From Linnemannia elongata (lineage: Eukaryota > Mortierellomycota > Mortierellomycetes > Mortierellales > Mortierellaceae), in contig JAXBDG010000002.1 in NCBI GenBank assembly GCA_036320915.1, forward strand, positions 2,542,001-2,606,000: DNA of 64,000 bases. Reading direction: 5' to 3'. The notes below the pieces were generated by a model. That model was not told the DNA's origin. It ran no database searches and saw nothing but the letters and a program-made list of their open reading frames with translations. Shown here in pieces: positions 8,346 through 63,400 of the stretch. Within the stretch, counting starts at the first letter, position 1, and every line of letters begins with the position of its first letter. The position numbers and the translations under genes are program-made.

Positions 8346-8612
8346 TCAAATAGCAGAAACAGCCGCCTTCTTCTTCGTCTCCTCCTCCTCCTTCTCTCCC
8401 TGTGTGCTCTTCGAAGGATTCTGAGGAATCGCATCCATGGTTCCGCGCTTGGGAGCTTGTGGTAAGAAGTTAGCCTGAGGCCGATAAGCTGTATCTTTCA
8501 AGAGCTGCCTATGTTGGAGCCACTTTGGTAGCCAGTTGAACACAACGTATCTGATAATGCGCTCCAGTAACGTCTATTCAGTAGCATAAGAGAAGTAATG
8601 ACTGTTAGCATT

Positions 8613-8648
<36 letters not shown>

Positions 8649-10575
8649 GGGGGGGGGTGCATTGACTTGAAAGAAGAAAAAAATGCAAGCTCTCGCTTAA
8701 TCGACATACATGTCCAAAAATGAGTTTGGCACTGATGTGCGACTGAGGATACTGGTCCTTGATGGCCTCAAATCGCTCATTCTTGTAGTCACTCAGCGCA
8801 GTCTTGATGTTGTCAAAACTGGTGGGCTTGATGTCATAGATGTGGTTAGCGAGGAGCACCGCATCCTGCATGGCGTTCACTGCGCCAGCACCGCTGCTTG
8901 GAAGAAGCTGGAATTGAAAGAAATTGAGACAAATGAATGGTTGTTAGAGGGGTATGCAGGAAGCGTATACATGATTTACAATTTCTTTCTTCCTGGATCC
9001 TTGTGTTTATTACCTTGTGTGCAGCTACATTTACGGAACATGAGGAAAAGGCAGAAAGACCAGTACATTAGTTAAAAGTGAAGACTCGAAGCAGCTGAAC
9101 ACTCAACAAGAACAAAAACCAACAAAAACGACTCATACCATCTCCGATCAGGACTGCCCTTCCATGGTTCCAGGTCTCGAAGAGCATGTCCTCAAAGTAG
9201 ACCTTCGAGACACACTCAATGGGTGTTGCATCAAAAAGATCGCCCAAGGCACCGTGAGGTGTGACAAAGTGGCGGATAGAATCCATCATTTTCTGGTTCT
9301 GTTGAGGAACCCAGTCCGAGCAACTGAACTGCTCGTCAGCAATCTCGGTGATGCCTAGCTGAACAACGACATTCCAACAGATTCTATTGCCAGGAATGGT
9401 GAACATTGTCCACTGGGAAAAATATTGCGGGGTGTGTTGGAAATACTCTGCGTTAGGCGAATAGTCTTTCCGTCACATCCCATCGCGCAAGGCACTACCT
9501 CTTGCAACTTACAGTGTAGGGTGTATCTTTGTCCCCAATGACGAAGTAATCCTTGGCATTCAAGACCTCCGGAAACTTGGCAGGGTCAAGAGATTCGGTT
9601 GTACCTAACAACGAGATATACCCTTTACTCATTTCCAAGGTGTCTGTCTTAGGGAGGAGTCCCTCCTTGGTTAGGGTCTTGTACAAGTGTTGACGGACAG
9701 CACTGTGCGCACCATCAGCGCCTACAAGAATGTCGCCATGCATTGAAGTGTTGTCACTAAAATGCACCTTGACACCCTCATGATTCTGCTCAAAAGACAA
9801 GACCCTCTTGGACAGGTGAATCTTGCCCGGAGGGATTCTCTTCAGCAACATGTCGTACAACTCAGGTCGGGCACACAAGAGGCGATCGTATCCAACGCTA
9901 GAAGCGAGAAAAAGAAAAAATCATACACATGCACAGGATAAGTTTCGGGACCGTACCAAAGCATCTACTTGAGGCTACAATAACATAAGAACTTACAGCT
10001 CAGCTGGAGTACCCTCATTTTTGCCAATGAGGTCCAACCTGTCTGTCAGAAACGTTACACCTTGCGACGGCTTGGAGAACGACATGAGTTCTTCCAGTAA
10101 ACCAAGTTGCTCGAATGCGGGTAAGATGTTGGCGGACTATGCGTTGAATGAAATGTCAATGAAGCGAAATCAGCTGAATGTACTTGGATCATCTATTTTT
10201 TTTTTCTTGTAGAAGAAAAATGAATGGAACATACCAAGCACATAATGGACCCTTGAACCCATCGTCGAGAAAAAGCAAAGAAGGAGCGGAGAAGTTAGTA
10301 TTATATATCGTATGGTCAAAACATGGTCCGATTTATGTTTTTGTCTATACAGGGTGGAGCGACTCACCAAGAGGCCGGATCTCTGCTGAACGCTCAAAGA
10401 TCTCAAAAGGTATCCTTGCCTTCTCGAGGAGGATACCAAGGAAAAGGCCACCCAGACCGGCACCGGCGATGAGCACGCGAGGAGGTCTCTCAGTTAACAG
10501 GGGAGGTAAGTCGTTAGCTTTAGATCCTGTCGAAGGAGGGAGTGTGTTTGTCGTATTATCAAATGAAGCACTCAT
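8346..10575 (-). CDS. FAD-dependent monooxygenase, copy 1 (8 exons, 486 aa)
   Basis: Group A flavoprotein monooxygenase (FAD_binding_3 / salicylate-hydroxylase-like), predicted to hydroxylate a small, often aromatic, substrate using NAD(P)H and O2 in the cytosol. The substrate is unknown. Exons on the minus strand: 10575-10368, 10251-10235 (17 nt), 10136-9997, 9897-9513, 9412-9139, 9024-9014 (11 nt), 8907-8710, 8573-8346. All introns are GT–AG and the phases sum to 487 codons. Motifs: GxGxxG at residues 38-43 (IAGAGLGGLF); acidic E61 after the second strand; DG motif D183-G184 in VGADGAHSAVR; GD motif at 340-341 in IGDAAHKLLPSSGAGA, completed by the 11-nt exon. The last exon adds about 75 residues with the family signature YRPQANFLPQAPKRGT and a Lys/Glu-rich tail. 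Intron 7 holds a T32G10 homopolymer at 8616-8657. Exon 4 is 6 nt shorter than in the paralogues. Confidence 0.93.
8616..8657. repeat. T32G10 homopolymer inside intron 7 of copy 1
   Basis: A run of 32 T followed by 10 G on the plus strand, which reads C10A32 in the sense strand of the monooxygenase. It lies wholly within the intron 8709-8574 and does not touch the splice sites. Exact run length is unreliable in sequencing. Confidence 0.9.
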
Positions 10576-11849: not shown

Positions 11850-14011
11850 TTAGAGGGCAGCGACATTCGTTCTACTCGCCTCTTCCTCCTTCTCCTTCTG
11901 CATCCGTTTTGAGGGTTTCTGCGGAATAACATCCAAGTTACCGCGCTTGGGTGCCAGAGGTAAGAAGTTTGCCTGAGGGCGGTAAGCAGTGTCCTTGATT
12001 AATTGCTTGCGCTGGAGCGACTTGGGGAGCCAGTTGAACACAACATGTCTGAGAACTCGCTCAGTAAAAGTCTATCCAGTCCAAAGAATTGCATAACGAC
12101 GTTAACAATCAATGCGCCTTGCTCTCATTTTTCACCAAAAACTGAATATGAATCCTTTTCACCAACTTACATGTCCAAAGATTAGTTTGGCGCCCATATA
12201 AGACTGTGGGTATTGATCCTTGATAACATCAAATCGCTCTTCTTTGTACTCGCTCAAAGCGGTCTTGATATTTTCAAAGCTGGTGGGAAAAATGTCATAA
12301 AGATGATTTGCAAGAAGGACGGCATCTTGCATGGCGTTGACAGCACCAGCACCGCTGCTTGGAAGGAGCTAGATAAGTACAGACGAAGGAAGAAATAAAA
12401 GGTTGTTGGAATGATGCGACAAACGAAATTTAAGTAATCCTCATATCCATTTTCTCTTACCAAGTGGGCAGCTAAGGGCGAAATCGAGTAGGAGAATAAT
12501 TCAGTGGATAATGTGTTAGTGTGGGGTGGAACATCGATTGGATCGAAACAGAAGGTGCAAGGGAAAATAAAAGGCAGGTACCATCGCCGATGAGAACGGT
12601 TCTTCCATGTGTCCAGGTCTCGAAGAGCTTGTCCTCGAAATAGATCTTTGAAACCTTCTCAATGTCGGTCACATCAAACAGGTCTCCCATGGTGCCATAG
12701 GGGGTCTTGAAGTGGCGGATCTCGTCCAACATCTTCTTGTTGTCCTGGTTGGTCCAGTCTGACGACACAGCATGTTCGTCCGCGGTAGAAGAAAGCCCAA
12801 GCTGAACGATAACGTTCCAGCAGATTCTGTTACCGGGAACGGTGAAGGTCACCCACTACCAAAAAGAAACGCAACAGGTTAGTCAGGAAAATCCCTCCCA
12901 ACTTTTCTTTGAGAAAACACTCTATGAGGCACGAACACGACTGATGCAACTTACAGTGTAGGGTGTGTCTTTATCTCCGATCATATACAATGCCTCAGAT
13001 TCTTTCTCCAAGACACCAGGGTACTTGACGGGATCCAACTCGTTGGTCGTGCCGACAAGGGATATGTAACCTTTGCTCAAAGCCTCGGTATCGGCCTTGG
13101 GGAGAAGGCCTTTCTTCTCCAGGGTAGCATAGAGGTGTTTACGAACAGCACTATGAGCGCCGTCGGCTCCGACAAGGATGTCACCGCGGGCAGTGGTATT
13201 GTCGTCAAAGGTGACGGTAACGCCATCCTGATCTTGGTCAAGGGTAGCAATCTTCTTTGACAAATGGATCTTGTCCGAGGGGATGTTTTTGAACAGCATG
13301 TCTTGCAGCTCAGGACGGGCGAACAAGACGCGATCATACCCAGTGCTAAAGAGAGGGAGTGTTACATATTCATAGGAGGATGTGAGTGAAAAGGACCATG
13401 TTTTCTTTGAAGAGAGAAATAGAAAAGAATGAAACTTACAGCTCAGTGCAATCGGTGTCGGCTTGGCCGATGGGTTCTAACCTATCGGTCAAAAATACTC
13501 CGCGCAACGAGGGCTTGGAGAACGACAAAAGTTCGTCCAACAAGCCGAGCTGCTCGAATGCCGGGAGAATGTTTGGTGACTATACGAAAAAGTTGGATGA
13601 ATAAGGAACTATGTCAGCTGCAGAACAACGGGTGCTTCTACAGCATACGGCCAAAAAAATCACAAGGTTCTCTTTGTTACCAGGGACATAATGGCACCTA
13701 AACCCCATGGCAGGTGGAAAGTGCGCAAAAATTAATGTGTTAAGTTATGTGCCGTGTGTACATGCTCGTGCGAATTCTTCGCATGCAATAGAATTGTTGT
13801 TAATTTGATATAGCTCACCAAGTGGCCTGGGTGCAGCAGAACGCTCGAAGATCTCATAAGGGATGCCAGCCCTCTCTAACAGGATGCCGAGGAAAAGGCC
13901 AGCCAGGCCAGCACCAGCAATTAGAACGTGAGGCGCTTTATTGGGAATGGCAGGAGGTACGGGGCTGCTGCTCGAGTGGGTGGGCTGAATGGAGTCAGAG
14001 GGTGCGCTCAT
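11850..14011 (-). CDS. FAD-dependent monooxygenase, copy 2 (8 exons, 481 aa)
   Basis: Same family and exon plan as copy 1. Exons: 14011-13819, 13697-13681 (17 nt, encoding GAIMSL with flanking bases), 13579-13440, 13345-12955, 12855-12582, 12471-12461 (11 nt), 12368-12171, 12071-11850. The phases close to 482 codons. The N-terminus begins MSAPSDS and lacks the KGSDLPPLVT segment of copies 4, 5 and 7. GxGxxG is at 33-38 (IAGAGLAGLF), DG motif at D178, GD motif at D338. The 11-nt exon gives AAHL instead of AAHK. The exon-4 end carries two extra codons relative to copy 1 (ESEALYMIGD). Active-site segments are uninterrupted, so the gene looks functional. The last exon ends SRTNVAAL. The pseudogene downstream in the plus direction (14.6-15.3 kb) is most like this copy in its last exon. 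Confidence 0.92.
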
Positions 14012-45649: not shown

Positions 45650-47933
45650 TTAAAGGGCAGCGGCTGCCGCTCTCTGGGCTTCCTCTGCCTCCTCTCTCTC
45701 CCTTTGAACTCGCTTCAAAGGAGCCTGAGAGAGAGTTTCTATTGTGCCGCGCTTGGGCGTCTGGGGCAAAAAGTTGGCCTGGGGGCGATAGGCATTGTCT
45801 TTTGACATTTGCTTCATCTGCAAAGACTTTGGGACCCAATTGAACAGGACGTATCGCATAATTCGCTCCGAGAATGTCTTGTCGTGGAAAAAAAAAAGAA
45901 ACGGGAAAAAGAGAAATAACAAACAAAAGGTTAGTAAACCTGGACAAAGAGAGGCGTCTTTTGTTGAACATCTCTTCTTTGAAGGAGGCATCAGTTATCA
46001 CAAGGGACAGGGGAGGGGGTGTTGACATGCAATAAACTTACATGGCCGAATTGGAGCTTGGCAGCTAATTGCGTTTGTGCGTACTGTTCCTTCACAGCTT
46101 CGTAACGCTCTTCCTTGTATCCTTTGAATGCATTCTTGATGTTCTCGAAACTGGTTGGTTTGATGTCGTACAAATGGTTGGCGAGGATGACGGCGTCTTG
46201 CATTGCGTTAACAGCGCCGGCACCTGTACTTGGGAGGAGCTGAGGACAGAAAAAATAGAAAATTAATATTGTGGTTAGAACGAGAATGCTCTCAACAGAT
46301 GGACAAATGACTGGAATCGTAGTTCCTTGCTTTTACCTTGTGTGCAGCTACAAACAACAATGATAAGGAAAATAAATGCAAACAGAGCGTTAGTCATAAA
46401 GAACGAGACACAGATCAGCGAGCACAAACAGGAAAACAACAAAACAGAGAAAAAGATGAACTAACCATCACCGATCAAGACAGTTCGTCCGTGGTGCCAT
46501 GTTTCGAACATCATATCCTCAAAGTACACCTTGGAAACCACTTCAATAGGCGTATAATCAAACAGGTCACCCATGGTTCCGTAAGTGGTCCTGAAGTGAC
46601 GGATAGAGTCCATCATCTTTTGGTTCTGCTGTGGGACCCAGTCCGATGTCCTGAATTGATCATCCGCGATCTCGGCAACGCCCAACTGGACAACGACGTT
46701 CCAGCAGATCCTGTTTCCTGGAACGGTGAATGTACACCACTATGGAGAAGTGCAGTACCAAACAACGTAGTTAGCAAATGAATCACTTGAGCGCGGACAT
46801 AAGTATTTTGTACCTCATGACAAATGCGACTCAACTTACAGTGTACGGAGTGCTCCCGTCTCCAATGATACCATAAGTCTGACAGTCCTCCTTCAAGACA
46901 TCCGGGTACTTCTCTGGGTCCAATGCCTTGGTTGTGCCGACTAGTGAGATATACCCTTTCTTCATACTCTGGTTGTCAGCCTTGGGGAGCAACCCTTGCT
47001 TTTCCAGGGTCTTGTACAAATGCTGACGAACGGCACTGTGCGCACCATCGGCTCCGACGAGGATGTCGCCGTGGATAGTACTGTTGTCGCTGAATCGTAC
47101 CATGACTCCTTCGTGGTTCTGCTGGAAGGAGAGGATCTTCTTGGATAGGTGCATTTTTTCTGTGGGGATCTGACGGAGCAACATGTTGTGCAACTCTGGA
47201 CGAGGAAACAGCTGGCGTTCGTATCCCATGCTAAAATGTATATACAGTACGAGATATATTAATTAATACGGCCAGAAAAGAAATTTTCTGAACAAGAGAG
47301 AGAAAACGTCGATACTTGTTGGAGGGGGGAAAGAACAGCAAAAAAAGTTTGGGAAGACCTACACTTCTGGGGAGATAGACTTGAAGTTAGCGATGAGCTT
47401 TAGCTTGTCTGTCAATACAGACCCACCGTCTCGCAGAGGTTTTGAGAAGGATAACAGCTCCTCATAAAGGCCCAATTGTTCAAAGGCAGGAAAGACGTTT
47501 GGCGTCTACGAGACGAGAGAAAGGTAAGGAGTAACAGTGAGAGATCATGATAGAACGGTTCCTGAGCTTCACTTTGTTGTACAAAGAAATGGAGGCCTAT
47601 TATTACCAAACACATAATGGCACCTAGGATGCATAGTAGAAAAGAGTCGGAAGGGAGTGGAAGAAAGGTGAGTTATGCATTGTGGGGTTAATTCGTGTCT
47701 TGTACCTCCGACTACTAGTGCGGAGCTGCTTTCTTACCAAGGGGCTTAATCTCGGCTGACCGCTCAAAGATCTCATAAGGGATTCCTGCTTTCTCGAGAA
47801 GGATACCAAGGAATAGTCCCCCCAGGCCACCGCCGGCGATGAGGACGCGGGGAGGCCGGTCGGTCACCAGTGGAGGTAGGTCACTGCCTTTGAAGCCTCC
47901 TGTGGGTACGGGCTTGGTCGAATTAACACTCAT
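45650..47933 (-). CDS. FAD-dependent monooxygenase, copy 4 (8 exons, 485 aa)
   Basis: Same family as copies 1 and 2. Exons: 47933-47738, 47623-47607 (17 nt), 47505-47363, 47230-46840, 46739-46466, 46347-46337 (11 nt), 46239-46042, 45877-45650, closing at 486 codons. The glycine-rich loop is IAGGGLGGLF (34-39 for GxGxxG), a variant shared only with copy 5. DG motif at D180, GD motif at D340 with AAHK. Exon 3 has one extra codon compared with copies 1, 2, 6 and 7, again shared with copy 5, so these two are sister copies. Exon 4 contains VMGYERQLFPRPE where others have VGYDR. The tail is Ala-rich (QRAAAAAL). Intron 5 starts with GTTAGT, a weaker donor than in its paralogues. Confidence 0.92.
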
Positions 47934-49094: not shown

Positions 49095-51277
49095 TCAAAT
49101 GGCGGCGGCGTTCTCACTCCTCCTCTCCTCCTCTTCCACTTTTCCCATTTGAATGCGCTTCGAGGGGTTTTGAGAGATCACGTCCAATGTTCCGCGCTTG
49201 GGCGCCTGGGGTAAGAAGTTGGCCTGAGGACGGTAGGCATTGTCCTTTGTCATCCGCTTCAGTTGCATCGACTTTGGAACCCAGTTGAACAATATATATC
49301 GCAAAAATCGCTCCCACAAAGTCTATTCGACCAATGAAACAATGAGTGTTCGATATCTATATATGTGAAGAACGCTGTGAAGATTACAAGCACGATATGT
49401 ATGTTGACGCAAAAACTTACATGTCCGAATTGCAACTTCGCAGCAAATTCTGCTTGTGGGTATTGTTCCTTGACAGCATCAAAACGTTCCTCCTTGTAGT
49501 CGCTCAATGCCTGCTTGATGTTCTCGAAACTAGTTGGTTTGATGTCGTACAGATGGTTGGCGAGAATGACAGCATCCTGCATTGCGTTCACAGCGCCGGC
49601 ACCTGTGCTTGGGAGCAACTGGGGCAAATAAATAGTAATAAGTCAACACTGCTGTTAGATCAAAAACGCCAATAACGGATCGACGATTCCTTTGATACTC
49701 TTTCATTTCTCACCTTGTGAGCGGCTAGAAAGGAGAGATGAAGAAGTGAATGGACACAAAAGCATTAGTCGTAGAAATCGATGGCAATCTAAGTGGGAGC
49801 GAAAGGCAAACGGAGGAAAACAAATGTATATACCATCGCCGATCAAAACGGTTCGTCCGTGGTTCCATGTCTCAAAAAGCATGTCTTCGAAGTACACCTT
49901 GGAGACACGTTCAATGTCAGTCTCATCGAACAGATCACCCAAGGCACCATAAGGCGTCTTGAAATGGCGGATCGAATCCATCATTTTTTGGTTCTGTTGA
50001 GGGACCCAGTCTGACGTTTTAAACTGGTTATCCGCGATCTCGGTGACACCTAACTGAACAACGACATTCCAGCAGATCCTGTTTCCTGGAACAGTAAAGG
50101 TCACCCACTATCAAAACATACAGTGTCAACAAGAAAACCAGATAAGCGAAGGAGTCTCTTGCAGCGTGTATTTTTTGAACTTTGTAAGGCAAACTAAGAT
50201 ACTTACAGTGTAAGGAGTACTTCCGTCCCCAATGATACCATAACTCTGACAATCCTCTTTCAAAACGTCCGGGTACTTCTCAGGATCCAATTCATTGGTT
50301 GTTCCCACCAAGGAGATGAACCCCTTCTTCATATCCTGATTATCAGACTTGGGTAGGAGCCCCTCCTTGATCAACGTCTTGTACAAGTGCTGACGAACGG
50401 CACTGTGAGCTCCGTCCGCGCCAACGAGAATATCGCCATGGACAGTGGTGTTGTCGCTGAATCGTGCCATAACTCCCTCATGGTTCTGCTGGAAGGACAA
50501 GACCTTCTTGGACAAGTGTATCTTTTCCGCAGGGACCTTGCGGAACAACATGTCGTGGAATTCTGGACGAGGGAACAGGAGGCGTTCGTATCCGAAGCTA
50601 GGAGGAGACAAAGGATACCAGCCACATATAAGTATTTGTACGAGAAGGCCACTCATTTTAGAAGAAAACGCTAGGAATTTGGTGATGGTAGACTTACATG
50701 TCATTGTCAATTGGTGTGATATTGGCAATGGGTTTCATTTTGTCTGTCAGGATAGCTCTGCCCCCACGCATGGGTTTTGAAATTGCCAGTAATTCCTCAT
50801 AGAACCCCAACTGTTCGATGGCAGCGAGAATATTGGGTGACTATTCACATAGAATGGTGCACATGGGGGTTGCGGCTTAGTACATGTGTTCAGGCTGGCA
50901 ACCACTGAACAATGAGGGCTGATATTGATGTTTTGGTATACTTACCAGACACATAATGGCGCCTAGGGCCGGCAAATGAATATGGTAGTATGATGATAAG
51001 CTGAGGGTATCATGGCGGGTCATTGTCTAATTCAATTGCTTTAAAATCCGATGTGGAGCAAATGCATACCTAAAGGCTTAATCTCGGGCGACCGCTCAAA
51101 GATCTCGTAGGGGATGCCTGCTTTCTCCAGAAGAATTCCAAGAAATAGTCCACCGACACCACCTCCAGCAATGAGGACACGAGGAGGCCTGTCAGTCACC
51201 AATGGAGGCAAGTCGCTACCCTTGGTACTTGACGAAGAGAGGGGCGTGTTTGACGTCTTGTTGAAAGAGGCACTCAT
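49095..51277 (-). CDS. FAD-dependent monooxygenase, copy 5 (8 exons, 489 aa)
   Basis: The longest copy. Exons: 51277-51070, 50962-50946 (17 nt), 50840-50698, 50597-50207, 50107-49834, 49724-49714 (11 nt), 49618-49421, 49322-49095, closing at 490 codons. The glycine loop is IAGGGVGGLF at 36-45, DG motif at D184, GD motif at D344 (AAHK). The first exon begins MSASFNKTSN, close to MSASFDNTTN of copy 1, while the body is closest to copy 4. That combination suggests mosaic ancestry or conversion among copies (inference). The last exon retains YRPQANFLPQAPKRGT. The region upstream differs from copy 1 by an insertion flanked by two long A-runs (51378-51613). All splice sites read as GT–AG. Confidence 0.92.
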
Positions 51278-54260: not shown

Positions 54261-57200
54261 CTACCGGTGGTTCATGTAGTGATGGGTCAGAGTCGAGTTG
54301 GACTTGAGCGTCTCAGAAAGAGCATGAGCCCCCTTGTTTCCGAATGAATTGTCAAATAGGTATAGACTGATCGGAGTTAACCTGGTCTTCATTGCCACAG
54401 CCAGGGCTTGAGCTCCATTGTCTCCGATCGCGTTGTCCCCCAAGTTCAAAGAGATCAGAGTTGAGTTGGTCTTGAGTGCCTCGGACAGCGCCTGAGCTCC
54501 ATTGTCTCTGATCAAGCTCGCTCTCAAGTCTAGTTCGGCCAGAGTTGAGTTGGTCTTGAGTGCCTCAGCCAGGGCCTGAGTTCCTTTATCTCCAATCGAG
54601 TTGCCCCCACAGTACAAAGTGGTTAGAGTTGAGTTTGTCTTGAGTGCCTCAGCCAGGGCTTGAGCTCCTTTATCTCCTATCAAGCTGTTATCCACGTGCA
54701 GAGTAGTTAGAGTTGAGTTGGACTTCAATGCCTCAGCCATGGCTAGAGCCCCTTTCTTCCCGATCTTATTGTGTAAGTGCAGAGTTGTGAGAGTCGAGTT
54801 AGTCCTGAGTGCCTCAGCCAGGGCCTAGGCTCCTTTCTCTCCAATCGAACGGTGCCCCAAGTTTAGAGTGGTAAGTGTTGAGTTGATCTTGAGTGCCTCA
54901 GCCAGGGCCTGAGCCCCTTTCACTCCAATCGAGATGGATGACAAGTCCAAAGAGGTCAGGGTCGAGTTGGTCTTGAGTGTCTCAGCCATGGCCATAGCTC
55001 CTTTCTCTCCAATCGAGTTGGCCCCACAGGACAATGTGGTTAGAGTTGAGTTGGTCTTGAGTGCCTCAGCCAGGGCCTGAACTCCCTTGTCTCCGATCAT
55101 GGTGCTAACGTCCAAAGCAGTCAGCGTCGAGTTGGTCTTGAGTGCCTCAGCTAAGGCCTGAGCTCCTTTTTCTCCAACCGAGCTGCACGACAAGTTAAGA
55201 GTGGTTAGCGTCGAGTTGGTCTTGAGTGCCTCGGCCAGATCCTGAGCCCCTTCATCTCCAACTGAGAGGAATTTCAAGTCCAAAATGGTCAGCGTCAAGT
55301 TGGTCTTGAATGCCTCAGTTAGGGCCTGAGCTCCGTTGCGTTTGATTAAATGTTCATGTAGTCGAGAGCGGTCAGTGTCGACGTGGTCTTGAGTGCTTCA
55401 TCCAGGGCATGAGCTCCTTTCTCTCCGAATGATTTGTCCCATAGGTATATAGTGATCAGAGTTGAGCTGTTCTTAAGTATCTCCGCAAGGACTCTAACCT
55501 CCTCCTCGCTAAAACGTCTAACTCCAACCACCATCTCAAAGGATAACTTGTGAAGGTGAGATGGTCTTTTTGGAGTGAAGTTGGAAAGCTTGACAAGGTC
55601 GTCCGGGAATACAATATGAATCGATTTCAAATTGGGAAGTTCCAATAATCCGTAGAGGACTTCGTATCGTGTGGATATTGCAGACAGCTTGCTCCTAAGG
55701 CTCGGTCGAAATTGTTGGAGATCAAGACGAAGCATCGATATCATGGATCTCCTGAGTGCTTCCTGTAGTACTTGAAGATCTCTATCCGTGCATTCCCAAC
55801 TCAAATCCACAATGAGTTCAATGACACCTTTGGCTTTGGGAGGGAATCAAAGAACTCGGTGGCAGCGAAACTGGACTCCAGAACAATAGTAATCCTTCCC
55901 AGCTGCTCATCAAATCGTCCTTTTTGTATTTTGACCACGTCCCGAAGTCTTTGGGTGTGCGTCTCCTGGTAGCCGGTTCGGTAATGGTCAAGACATACCC
56001 ATTTAACGTGGCCGCCCGAGGTTGTCATTCGATAAAGGCCCCCAAGTAGATTTCCCTCCTCTGATGTCTTCAAAAATGAACCCAACTGGCGTAACTCGAC
56101 ACCTTCCAGACCTTCGACATCGCTCAAATAGTTGGTCAAGTCTTGTTGCGTCATTGCTGCTCGAGGCTCAGTGCCGATGAAATCCCCTGGCGATGATGCT
56201 TGGACTTTGGCCATTTGATTGTCGATACATTGGAGCGAGTAATCGATCTTGGCCGTGACTGTCTCGACAGACTGTTTGATAGAGTCGGCCAGCTCGACAA
56301 CCTTAAGGTTAGCCAGGGCAGATACAATATGGCCGGTAATACTTGAGCCAAACGTGATAAGTTCAAGCATCAACAGAAGAAATGACCATATTTCTTGAAG
56401 AACTTGGTTGGCTCGCGGACAAGGTACCCTCCGTGCTTTGCTAGGTGGAGGTGATGTGGTATCTTGCTGTTATTGGGCTCGGTGTGTTTTCCGCACTCAC
56501 AAATGAAATGTAGTCGGAATTTGGTTCTGAACCAATTGCCGGGATCATACTTTGCCGGTTCTTCCGGCAGGACAACAAACAACCGAGGAATCGGGTACTC
56601 GGCTAGCTCCAACTGCTGCGTTAAGATGGCCTCGGTCTTGCTCTGGATCAGAATCAATCGGTCATTCATCTGCTTTTGCAGCTCCCAAACCTCACGAGCA
56701 ATTTGCTGTGTCATAGCGCCTTGATTGTAGAGGCCTTCCAGCTTGCTGATGACTGTTCTCTCGAACCCAGATTTGGCCATCGATGCTAGAGTCAACTTCG
56801 AGGCAATCAACGATGAGAGCGCTTCAGTTGTCAATGGCTTTCCAGACTGGCGGGCTTGCTCTATGGCTGCAGCCAGAGAAATGAACTGATTCTGGATATA
56901 CGTGTTGTTTCCTCTAGTCGTGGTTGCTTGATGTGGTTCAGCGGACGAAATGTCAGCGAAAGGCTTTGCGCCTATTTCATGGCCTGAGACAGACCCAGTA
57001 AGTGTTGCAGTGGAACTCGCTTGAATGCTGATGTCGAGCTCATCAATGATAGTGCCAGGACGGTAAGGATCAACTGGAGCATGGATGGGAGTTTCAACTT
57101 GACCATTGGTGGGAGCCAGCCTTGAATTTGCCACAGAAGAGTCCTCATGGATACAATTGGCACCAGTGGCCAAGACTACGTCCAAGACTACACCAGGATA

Positions 57201-58507: not shown

Positions 58508-60693
58508 TTAAAGTGAAACAACGTTCTTGTTCCTCGCCTCTTCTTCCTCTTTCTCCCTCTGAAGACGCTTGGATGGCTGTTGAGGGATGGTATCTATGGT
58601 ACCGCGCTTAGGTGCCTGAGGTAAGAAGTTGGCCTGGGGTCGGTAGGCAGTATCCTTGACCAACTGCTTCATCTGCATTGATGTTGGGAGCCAGTTGAAC
58701 ACCACCTGTCTGAGTATTCTCTCCCAAAGTGTCTGTGGATCCAAAAAGTGGAGAAAACAAAAGAATTCAGTGGGCATTTTTTTTTCCTTTTTGAGGATTG
58801 AAACAAAAACAAGGGAAATAATGGAGAGAGGGAGGACTTACATGTCCATAGATGAGTTTGGCGGCGATGTAGGACTGTGGGTATTGTTCCTTGATGGCGT
58901 CATATCGTTCATCCTTGTAATCGCTCAATGCCTGTGTGATATTGTTGAAGGTGGTGGGTTTGATATCATACAAGTGGTTGGCGAGGAGAACTGCATCCTG
59001 CATCGCGTTTACTGCGCCGGCACCACTGCTTGGCAGAAGCTAAAGAAAGGAAAACGGTGGTCGGTTAGAAGGATGTGTACGAACCATTGTCTTGATGCGA
59101 TCATCTAATGAATCGCCATTATCCTTACTTTATGAGCAGCTAAATAGGAAACGAGAGGCGAAAGGGAGTTAGTTCGCGGAGCTGCAGAGAGGTCATATTC
59201 ACAAGCGGGCACACAGGACCCGAAAAAAGTACTCACCATCACCGATCAAAACAGTTCGTCCATGGTTCCAAGTCTCAAACAGCTGGTCCTCAAAGTAGAC
59301 CTTGGACACCAGATCGATAGGCGTAACATCGAAAAGATCGCCTAGGATGCCGTATGGTGTCTTGAAGTGTCGAATCGCGTCCATCATCTTCTTGTTTTCC
59401 TGAGGCACCCAATCTGAAGACTTGAACTGCTCATCTGCCACCTCGACGATCCCCATCTGGATGACCACACACCAGCAGATCTTGTTGCCCGGCACAGCAA
59501 ATGTCACCCACTATAGCGGAAGGTACATAGAACAACACAAAAATAAAGCGATTAGATAGCCATTGATGACTAGGAAGTGTCGTGCTCTTGCCTCAGTAAG
59601 AAGCTGCGTCAAGACTTACGGTGTATGGTGTATTTTTGTCACCAATGATGTAGAAACTCTCCGAATCCTCCCTCAAGACACCAGGGTATTTGACAGGGTC
59701 CAATTCGTCCGTTGTACCAACCAAGGATATATAGCCCCTGTTCATCTCCTTGTTATCCGACTCGGGTAAAAGCCCTTGTTTCCCCAGTGTCTTGTAGAGG
59801 TGCTTGCGGACAGCACTATGAGCACCATCTGCTCCGACAAGGATGTCACCCCTGACCGACGTGCTGTCTCCAAACTTCACAGTGACGCCGTCCTGGTCTT
59901 GTTCAAAGGAAACGATCTTCTTGGACATATGGAGTCTCTCTGTGGGCGTCTTTCTGATCAGCAAGTCGTACAGTTCTGGACGGGCAAACAAGATGCGATC
60001 GTAGCCAACTCTAAATTTTTTGTTTGTGATGAAAGGCGTAAGCGAAATGAATTGAAAAAAAGGGGTGTATGCGCCTGAGGGTAATTATAATAATGTCCCA
60101 AGGAATCAAAACGTGCAAGGGCGTGACAGGAACGTACAGGTCGGTGGTCAAAGTTTGGGTCTTGCCAATGACGTCCAGGTCGCCGGTGTAGAAAGTGTTC
60201 CTGAGCGCCGGCTTTGAGAACGACATGACCTCGTCCAGTAGACCGAGCTGTTCAATTGCAGGCAGAATATTGGGTGACTAAAAAGAAGGAAAGGGACAGG
60301 AATAACCGTTAGATACAGAGGGTCGCATGGTTGTCTATTTCTCTATGTGTTATTGTGAGCGCTTACCAAACAAATAATAGAACCTAGAAAACAAGAGATT
60401 GAAAGAAAAGAAGGACAGGACACAAAGGTCAGAACCTTGGAAATGAGATATTTGTGTTGTTATTGCCTCCGCGTAGGTCATTCCTTTCATTTCTCGAATA
60501 TAAGAAACATGTTCTACATACCAAGGGGCTTGATCTCGGCAGCACGCTCATAGATGTCGTATGGAATGCCCGCCCTCTCTAGCAGAATGCCCAAGAATAG
60601 CCCAGCGAGACCAGCGCCCGAAATAAGGACATGAGGAGGCTGGGCAGCAGCCGAATTGGGGTTGGGTGTAGGTGCCTCCGCGATTGTAGTCAT
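58508..60693 (-). CDS. FAD-dependent monooxygenase, copy 6 (8 exons, 475 aa)
   Basis: The shortest intact copy, because the N-terminus is reduced (MTTIAEAPTP). Exons: 60693-60522, 60383-60367 (17 nt), 60277-60138, 60010-59620, 59510-59237, 59139-59129 (11 nt), 59039-58842, 58732-58508, closing at 476 codons. The glycine loop reads ISGAGLAGLF (GxGxxG at 26-31), with Ser replacing Ala before the loop. DG motif at D171, GD motif at D331 with AAHK. The 17-nt exon encodes GSIICL, whereas five of the copies have a Met at the fourth position. The sixth exon ends in AAA rather than AAG, making donor context AAA|GTAAGG. The acidic residue after the second strand lies in IYERAAEIKPLG rather than IFERSAEIKPLG. 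Functional status appears intact. Confidence 0.92.
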
Positions 60694-61220: not shown

Positions 61221-63400
61221 TCAAAGAGTAGCAGCAACGTTTGCAGTTTTCTTGGCCTCTTCTTGCTCCCTCTGGATGCGCTTCGAAGGTTGTTGAGGAA
61301 TGATGTCCAAAGTCCCGCGCTTGGGCGCCTGCGGTAGGAAATTGGCTTGAGGTCGGTAGGCAGTATTCTTCTGGAGCTGCTTTTGCATCGTCGACTTGGG
61401 GAGCCAGTTGAATACGACTTGTCGAAGAATCCGCTCCGAGAACGTCTACTCGATCAACGACGATGAAAACACATAAAATTAGTACAGGTAACAAGAAGCG
61501 CGCACTTAAAAAAAAGAAGCGGGAACTGGCGATGTAAAAAGAGCCTTACATGGCCATACATGAGCTTAGCTGCCATGTAGGATTGCGGGTATTGTTCCTT
61601 GACAGCTTCGAATCTTTCCTCCTTGTAATCGCTCAATGCCTTCTTGATATTTTCGAAACTCGTCGGCTTGATATCATACAGGTGGTTGGCGAGAAGGACA
61701 GCGTCCTGCATGGCGTTCACAGCACCTGCTCCCGTGCTTGGCAACAACTACAAATAGTGAGGGATGGATGTTGTATTGATTAGAGAAAATATACCAACCT
61801 CTCTAGTTGTGATGCAAATCGCCGCCAGTAAACCAAATATGCCTTACCTTGTGGGCAGCTACAAGAAGCCAAAGTGGTGAAGCAAAAAAAGAAGCGGATT
61901 CGTCAGACATCGTTTGCCACAAAATAAGGTAGAGATGGCAATGCAAGCACCACTCACAAGTCCGAGCACCTACCATCACCGATCAAAATAGTACGTCCAT
62001 GTGTCCAGGTCTCGAACAACATATCCTCGAAGTAAACCTTCGAGACCTTCTCGATCTGGGTTTGATCGAACAAATCGCCCAAGGTGCCATAGGTCGTCTT
62101 GAAGTGACGGATCGAATCCATCATAGCTTGGTTTTGTTGAGGAACCCAGTCCGAGGTCCTAAATTGGTCATCTGCGAGCTCGGCGATCCCGATCTGAATA
62201 ATCACGTTCCAGCAGATCTTGTTTCCGGGAACTGTGAATGTCGTCCACTACATCATGTTCGTGAGAAAATCGACAATAGTTAGACGGACAGTCGTAATAT
62301 TGTATAGTGCGTTGTATGAAAGAATTGTAATAACCTTACAGTGTAGGGTGTCTTCTTGTCTCCAATAATAAAGTTAATGTCGCAATCCTCCTTGAGAACG
62401 CAGGGGTACTTCTCCGGGTCCAGTTCGTTGGTTGTGCCCACTAGTGAAATGTACCCTCTGCTCATAGCCTTGGTGTCTGCCTTGGGGAGAAGTCCTTGTT
62501 TGTCCATTGTCTTGTAGAGGTGTTGACGGACCGCGCTGTGAGCGCCGTCGGCTCCGACAAGAATATCTCCATGAACTGTGGTGTTGTCGCTGAATCGGAG
62601 CATGACCCCTTCGTGATTTTGTTGGAACGAGAGGATCTTCTTGGACATGTGCATCTTCTCGGAGGGGATCTGCTTGAACAACATGTCGTACAACTCGGGA
62701 CGGGCGAACAGGATGCGATCATATCCAACCCTACAGTGTAAACAAGTGTAAAGTCGAGCGTGTGAGGATTCTTCCAATGATACAAGCGAAAAGTACAATA
62801 GAAACTCAATGAGTTGAACGTACGCGTCGGCGGGGATGCCCTCGTCTCTGGCAATGACCTTCAATTGATCAGTGTAATAGGACGAATTCTTGAAGCTCTT
62901 GGAGAACGACATGAGCTCCTCATAAAGTCCAATTTGCTCAAAAGCGGGAAGGATGTTTGGCGACTATCGGAGGACGCATGGTAAGGATAAACTTTGTTCA
63001 AGAGAGGAAACATTCACAACGTGCATATGTATGGTCATAAATGACAAGAACGAACAAAAAAATATTCAGGAAGGATAAAATACCAGTGACATGATCGCAC
63101 CTGCAATTTAAGAAAACAAAACCACAGAAAATGTTAGCAAGGACGCAAAGGTAATAGATTTGATGGGAATGAGGTACAATTAAGAAGAAGATCCTTACCA
63201 AGGGGCTTGATCTCGGCTGTCCGCTCAAAGATCTCATAAGGAATACCTGCCATCTCGAGGAGGATGCCGAGGAAGAGACCAGCGAGACCAGCACCGGCAA
63301 TAAGGACACGTGGGGGATCGTCGGTCACCAGGGGGGGAAGATCACTGCCCTTGTACCCGACGGAAGGAAGGGGTGCGGTGCTGTCGTTATCAGTGGTCAT
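61221..63400 (-). CDS. FAD-dependent monooxygenase, copy 7 (8 exons, 485 aa)
   Basis: Exons: 63400-63199, 63100-63084 (17 nt), 62963-62824, 62730-62340, 62247-61974, 61858-61848 (11 nt), 61747-61550, 61445-61221, closing at 486 codons. The last exon has no internal start, so it is easily missed. It reads TFSERILRQVVFNWLPKS and later NFLPQAPKRGTLDIIPQQ, ending AATL. The glycine loop is IAGAGLAGLF (GxGxxG at 36-41), DG motif at D181, GD motif at D341 with AAHK. Exon lengths (140, 391, 225) match copy 6, its neighbour only about 530 bp away, and both share GQ-poor N-termini starting MTT. They are therefore a recent pair (inference). The distance between copies 6 and 7 is the shortest in the array. 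Confidence 0.92.

Follow-up and report, generated by a model that had tools for sequence, protein, structure and literature searches.

Exon 6 of six FAD-dependent monooxygenase genes of Linnemannia elongata, all lying in the analysed window (a 64,000-nt stretch of contig JAXBDG010000002.1), is exactly 11 nt long and, by its reading, completes the GD motif region of the encoded enzymes. Exon 6 is very probably a constitutive coding microexon, the 11 nt having been left between two old spliceosomal introns, and we infer its constitutive inclusion from the sequence. All six spliced gene models consist of 8 exons with junction phases identical throughout, encode 475–489 aa and contain zero internal stops, and a repeat search recovered six copies of the main exon segments within the window (Table 1). 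A protein search supplied the relatives used below, and those of them that carry a name are annotated in Linnemannia, Mortierella or Haplosporangium; they are the best 120 of 580 found, and scoring covered only the 7995 candidates sharing most words. On the minus strand of the same window, the open frames at 54273–55335 consist of 84-nt (28-codon) tandem repeats, which by inspection resemble leucine-rich repeats.

Table 1 Coordinates of the six monooxygenase genes and of their two microexons within the window.
Feature	Position	Strand	Description	Sequence
Gene A, FAD-dependent monooxygenase	8346..10575	minus	8 exons, 486 aa, identical to P0051	
Gene B	11850..14011	minus	8 exons, 481 aa, identical to P0071	
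Gene C	45650..47933	minus	8 exons, 485 aa; no identical protein among the best 120 of 580 relatives	
Gene D	49095..51277	minus	8 exons, 489 aa, identical to P0034	
Gene E	58508..60693	minus	8 exons, 475 aa, identical to P0063	
Gene F	61221..63400	minus	8 exons, 485 aa; single mismatch to P0003, at residue 16; best 120 of 580 relatives include no identical protein	
Gene A exon 2	10235-10251	minus	17 nt	
Gene B exon 2	13681-13697	minus	17 nt	
Gene C exon 2	47607-47623	minus	17 nt	
Gene D exon 2	50946-50962	minus	17 nt	
Gene E exon 2	60367-60383	minus	17 nt	
Gene F exon 2	63084-63100	minus	17 nt	
Gene A exon 6	9014-9024	minus	11 nt, AAHK	CTGCACACAAG
Gene B exon 6	12461-12471	minus	11 nt, AAHL	CTGCCCACTTG
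Gene C exon 6	46337-46347	minus	11 nt, AAHK	CTGCACACAAG
Gene D exon 6	49714-49724	minus	11 nt, AAHK	CCGCTCACAAG
Gene E exon 6	59129-59139	minus	11 nt, AAHK	CTGCTCATAAA
Gene F exon 6	61848-61858	minus	11 nt, AAHK	CTGCCCACAAG

The initial annotation had placed an 11-nt exon in each of the six genes and had it supply Ala-Ala-His-Lys/Leu right after Gly-Asp. Both statements hold: all of its intervals match on the minus strand, and the spliced reading agrees in 6/6 genes, with Leu in gene B only. Exon 6 is preceded by TAG and followed by GTRA in every gene. Because exon 5 ends in phase 1 (GGNGATG/GT), the first Ala codon of exon 6 takes its opening base from the final G of exon 5; the codons read GCN GCN CAY AAR, with TTG (Leu) instead of AAR in gene B, and exon 7 starts in phase 0 with Leu-Leu-Pro-Ser. 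Intron 5 therefore interrupts the first of the two Ala codons that follow Gly-Asp (phase 1), and intron 6 lies between codons, ahead of Leu-Leu-Pro (phase 0). The microexon codon positions that are free under the genetic code vary among genes A–F, and the content of exon 6 appears to be set by the encoded FAD-binding residues, not by regulatory sequence.

By sequence and by structural model, the products of genes A–F are recognisable as group A flavoprotein monooxygenases. The GxGxxG motif near the N-terminus, the DG motif and the GD motif occur in all six models; the roles of these group A motifs are taken from PMC9838390, according to which the GD motif contacts the riboflavin moiety of FAD. 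In an alignment of 23 proteins, hand-chosen from the best 120 of 580 relatives with intact ones preferred, G26, G28, G31, D171-G172 and G330-D331 are invariant. A profile scan of gene F gave 95.5 bits to PF01494 (FAD_binding_3), for which the cut-off is 22. The best solved relative by sequence is the salicylate hydroxylase 5evy, in which LIGDAAH...P is the stretch aligned to exons 5–7, and the best fold match of the gene E protein model is HpxO 3rp8 (E 3.4e-27, TM 0.80 by target); the mean pLDDT of this model is 76.6, with only 58 at residues 331–340, the location of the microexon. The known group A enzymes (5evy, HpxO 3rp8, PF01494) show the same GD-x-x-H-x-x-x-P motif as the window proteins, although the best fold matches, 3rp8 first, share only about 20 percent identity with them.

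It might be supposed that an AG...GT frame arose by chance at the 11-nt exon, in genes that are spliced otherwise or non-functional, and some annotated relatives are indeed spliced otherwise in their database models, the intact motif being missing in 17 of the best 120. This is exceedingly improbable. When the gap between exons 5 and 7 was put through 3000 dinucleotide shuffles per gene, an AG-C-N-GCN-CAY-NNN-GT site turned up in 0 or 1 of them, which rules out a chance frame, and the six exons are homologous. Models A, B, D and E agree letter for letter with L. elongata database proteins, the residues fit the motif conserved among solved enzymes, 5evy for example, and relatives with the 11 nt fused to exon 7 encode the same residues. 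An alternative splicing path was also rejected, as every other frame-restoring candidate found in the gaps (up to 60 nt) fails to encode the motif or is an extension of the same exon.

The 17 exceptional relatives bear on a further statement of the initial annotation, that exons so short are easily mis-annotated, which is borne out. The intact motif string is found in 103 of the best 120 of 580 relatives, and for P0055, the one of the 17 that was compared with its DNA, the cause is confirmed: the annotated protein of gene L042 continues into intron 5 before joining exon 7, while the DNA holds the microexon. P0055 is without the exon 2 segment, too. In three database proteins (P0001, P0002 and P0004, 668–739 aa), two tandem monooxygenase genes look merged in one model. 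Missed tiny exons can lead to wrong gene models in a large fungal enzyme family, with part of the FAD site dropped.

Exon 2 is a second microexon, beyond those described in the initial annotation, of exactly 17 nt in 6/6 genes; it encodes Gly-Ala/Ser-Ile-Met/Ile-Cys/Ser-Leu. At 20 related loci this exon was present in 12 and absent in 3, the end of exon 1 not being found in the other 5. The residues of both microexons are present in P0003 and P0068, which also speak, indirectly, for splicing. P0003 is a full-length protein of 485 aa, one residue off gene F, and the longest contig of its cluster measures 1950 nt, while gene F takes 2180 nt in the genome from ATG to stop; since the P0003 contigs are shorter than the gene, their source is probably spliced. 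For P0068, also full-length, the contigs reach 1618 nt at most; it matches gene L048 at 97–98% over residues 238–330 and 334–400, and L048 spans about 2.2 kb by its match ends. P0023 comes from the same type of source and has no bearing on the microexon, because its best match, L036, has the 11 nt continuous with exon 7.

The microexon signature recurs across the L. elongata genome. The pattern AG-CN-KSN-CAY-AAG-GTRNR was found at 101 genome sites, compared with 2 for the reversed control. With an exon 5 donor at a set distance, the Ala-Ala-His-Lys form gave 13 hits and the Ala-Cys-His-Lys form 29 and 65 hits in two distance ranges, the controls giving 0 in each case; together these donor-anchored hits (13 + 29 + 65) represent 100 distinct sites, for which the pattern did not require exon 7. 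Five small repeat-rich contigs and certain contig ends together account for 56 of these sites; the remaining 44 lie outside them. The count of 100 is an undercount in that genes B (Leu) and E (AAA before GT) fall outside the pattern, and it may be inflated in that four sites have the same coordinates on C19 as on C22, so that the assembly may hold one region twice. A closer look was taken at 20 sites, hand-picked among the 100 matches listed of 101. Both flanks were found by script in 11 of them (weakly at L121) and by eye in 1 more (L112); L103 has both flanks with GE for GD, one flank was seen in four sites (L105, L109, L119 and L122), and family context was absent at three (L113, L114 and L120, the last with little downstream sequence).

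Closely similar monooxygenase copies recur near contig ends and on small contigs (G000 C1, C13, C17, C18, C19, C20, C21 and C22; loci L071, L090, L111 and L122–L126), with a spacing of often about 7.4 kb on C19 and otherwise about 11.5–11.8 kb. The same sequence ends C1 and C17 and begins C18, as the reverse complement on C18, and the four contig ends inspected showed no repeats of telomere type (TTAGGG or CCCTAA).

The statement that every copy contains the 11-nt exon stands for the six genes in the window but not for the family genome-wide, in which only 30 of the 48 classified genes have both flanking introns. Intron 5 alone is present in 13 of these genes, intron 6 alone in 1 (L015) and neither in 4; the 48 include the six and are a part of the family, chosen among the matches listed. 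The states were assigned from splice consensus and coding sense, L033 being read by eye and L089 with the help of L101, while the state of L097 rests on a weak exon 7 and those of L098 and L100 on an unbroken match. Four of the 13 fused genes lie on C12 near 2414552, 2418540, 2467642 and 2470564, amid microexon-bearing genes, and keep the 17-nt exon 2. Two individual loci may be added: L033 (G000:C12:2479938-2483597) contains in-frame stops and is an apparent pseudogene in which the microexon splice sites persist, and L031 (G000:C28:224963-228637) keeps the 11-nt microexon while its exons 4 and 5 form one unbroken match, intron 4 being absent.

On a tree of 222 columns from exons 4 and 5, which is unrooted and has 9 of its 45 inner branches drawn open, the distribution takes at least 9 changes for intron 6 and at least 4 for intron 5, and the branches with good support by themselves require 6 changes in the state with both introns. 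With a single origin per intron, there would be 10–13 losses of intron 6 and 4–5 losses of intron 5 over the rootings tried. Both introns are found in distant branches of this unrooted tree, including L014 at 30% identity to gene F, and this occurrence suggests that introns 5 and 6 are old. On the same unrooted tree, a missing intron 6 would represent loss rather than repeated gain.

Introns 5 and 6 measure 89–118 nt in genes A–F, and each would be recognised as a short intron. Their removal would be sequential, since an exon of 11 nt is too small for the complexes of both splice sites to sit on it simultaneously, an argument made for tiny exons in PMC8831610. Downstream intron 6 is perhaps removed first. 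According to the same paper, the downstream intron tends to leave first in plants, and the donor match and the pyrimidine tract of intron 6 appear to agree, weakly, with this order: the mean donor consensus match, of 9, is 6.17 for intron 6 and 5.50 for intron 5 (six genes; a small difference), and the pyrimidine content before the acceptor of intron 6 is the highest of the seven introns (0.80). The four cluster genes without intron 6 would then resemble a permanent form of the splicing intermediate.

Expression could also be tuned by detained or retained flanking introns instead of skipping, if the two introns compete and the upstream one is removed late. Intron detention is described for plant microexons in PMC8831610, retention of intron 5 or intron 6 gives a premature stop, within the intron or downstream, in 6/6 genes, and among the seven introns it is intron 5 whose donors fit the consensus least well on average. 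The difference in donor match is, however, small and derived from six genes, and we regard such tuning as rather unlikely. A search for conserved regulatory sequence in the intron flanks led to rejection of this candidate, as only the donor side of intron 5 stood out and the remaining values were close to those at other introns. With six genes compared, the flanks of the microexon introns diverge to roughly the same degree as flanks elsewhere; the exception is a slightly raised similarity of 0.353 on the intron 5 donor side, where 300 random sets reached 0.338 at most. This small excess could hint at constraint, though genes C and D are close relatives.

The initial annotation went further and described splicing of exon 6 as an on/off switch for enzyme activity, with skipping shifting the frame. 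The frameshift itself is confirmed: joining exon 5 to the start of exon 7 gives a premature stop after 350–373 residues in 6/6 genes, 109–166 nt upstream of the last junction. A regulated switch, in which conditional skipping of exon 6 would lead to a dead enzyme or to degradation of the frameshifted message, could build on this stop, and nutrient-dependent inclusion of a 20-nt microexon has been reported for Trichoderma Xlr2 in PMC11121469. For exon 6, however, the switch is unsupported and very unlikely. For gene F, the only tail searched, the protein search yielded 4 candidates and no significant match to the frameshifted product, a product that might go unrecorded; 13/48 classified genes have the 11 nt fused to exon 7, with fused relatives in the same clusters, and 4/48 are without either intron; and the intron flanks show no clear extra conservation. 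Nor need skipping shift the frame, since the first 60 nt of exon 7 contain at least one in-frame internal AG in every gene A–F. Two database models, P0020 and P0054, read GD-GAGAVNA, as expected from a joint at an exon 7 internal AG. A frame-keeping skip is thus conceivable, and from the sequence the motif would be removed all the same. With exon 6 as a constitutive coding microexon, failure of inclusion would yield an early-stopped message as a cost of the gene structure.

If inclusion were regulated, dozens of enzymes would be tunable at once. We consider it highly improbable that an ancestral 11-nt microexon has been multiplied by gene duplication, with arrays at contig ends among the copies, to about 100 sites such that splicing, not promoters, coordinates much of the monooxygenase repertoire; if this were true, a general drop in inclusion would silence the microexon-bearing members together while the fused relatives stay active. 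The presence of microexon, fused and neither-intron genes in one genome provides a ready comparison for studying the splicing of an 11-nt exon and its cost.

Conserved microexons and fungal microexons are already known, and what stands out here is the copy number and the mixed states in one genome; in the open-licence literature, we found by title no paper on such a microexon in Mortierella, and nothing on introns of Mortierella FAD-binding monooxygenases. In plants, microexons of up to 15 nt are, according to PMC8831610, conserved, often missed and merged into longer exons by intron loss. Exon 6 is likewise tiny, long-kept, missed in annotation and fused where a flanking intron is absent, staying within 15 nt at the same position and phase in 6/6 window genes and in 30/48 classified genes including the six; unlike the plant microexons, it is fungal, belongs to one enzyme family and has its signature at about 100 sites in a single genome. 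The 20-nt microexon of Trichoderma virens Xlr2, as presented in PMC11121469, resembles exon 6 in having a length that is not a multiple of three, in forming part of an essential motif and in having been missed in the gene model; it differs in being reported as a switch with glucose-dependent inclusion, whereas exon 6 has fused relatives. The P450 genes of Phanerochaete chrysosporium, according to PMC1184071, likewise form a multigene family of fungal monooxygenases; they occur in tandem clusters and contain small introns as well as microexons, the latter of 2–10 codons and not restricted to any P450 family. P450s are unrelated enzymes, and exon 6, by contrast, sits at one fixed motif.
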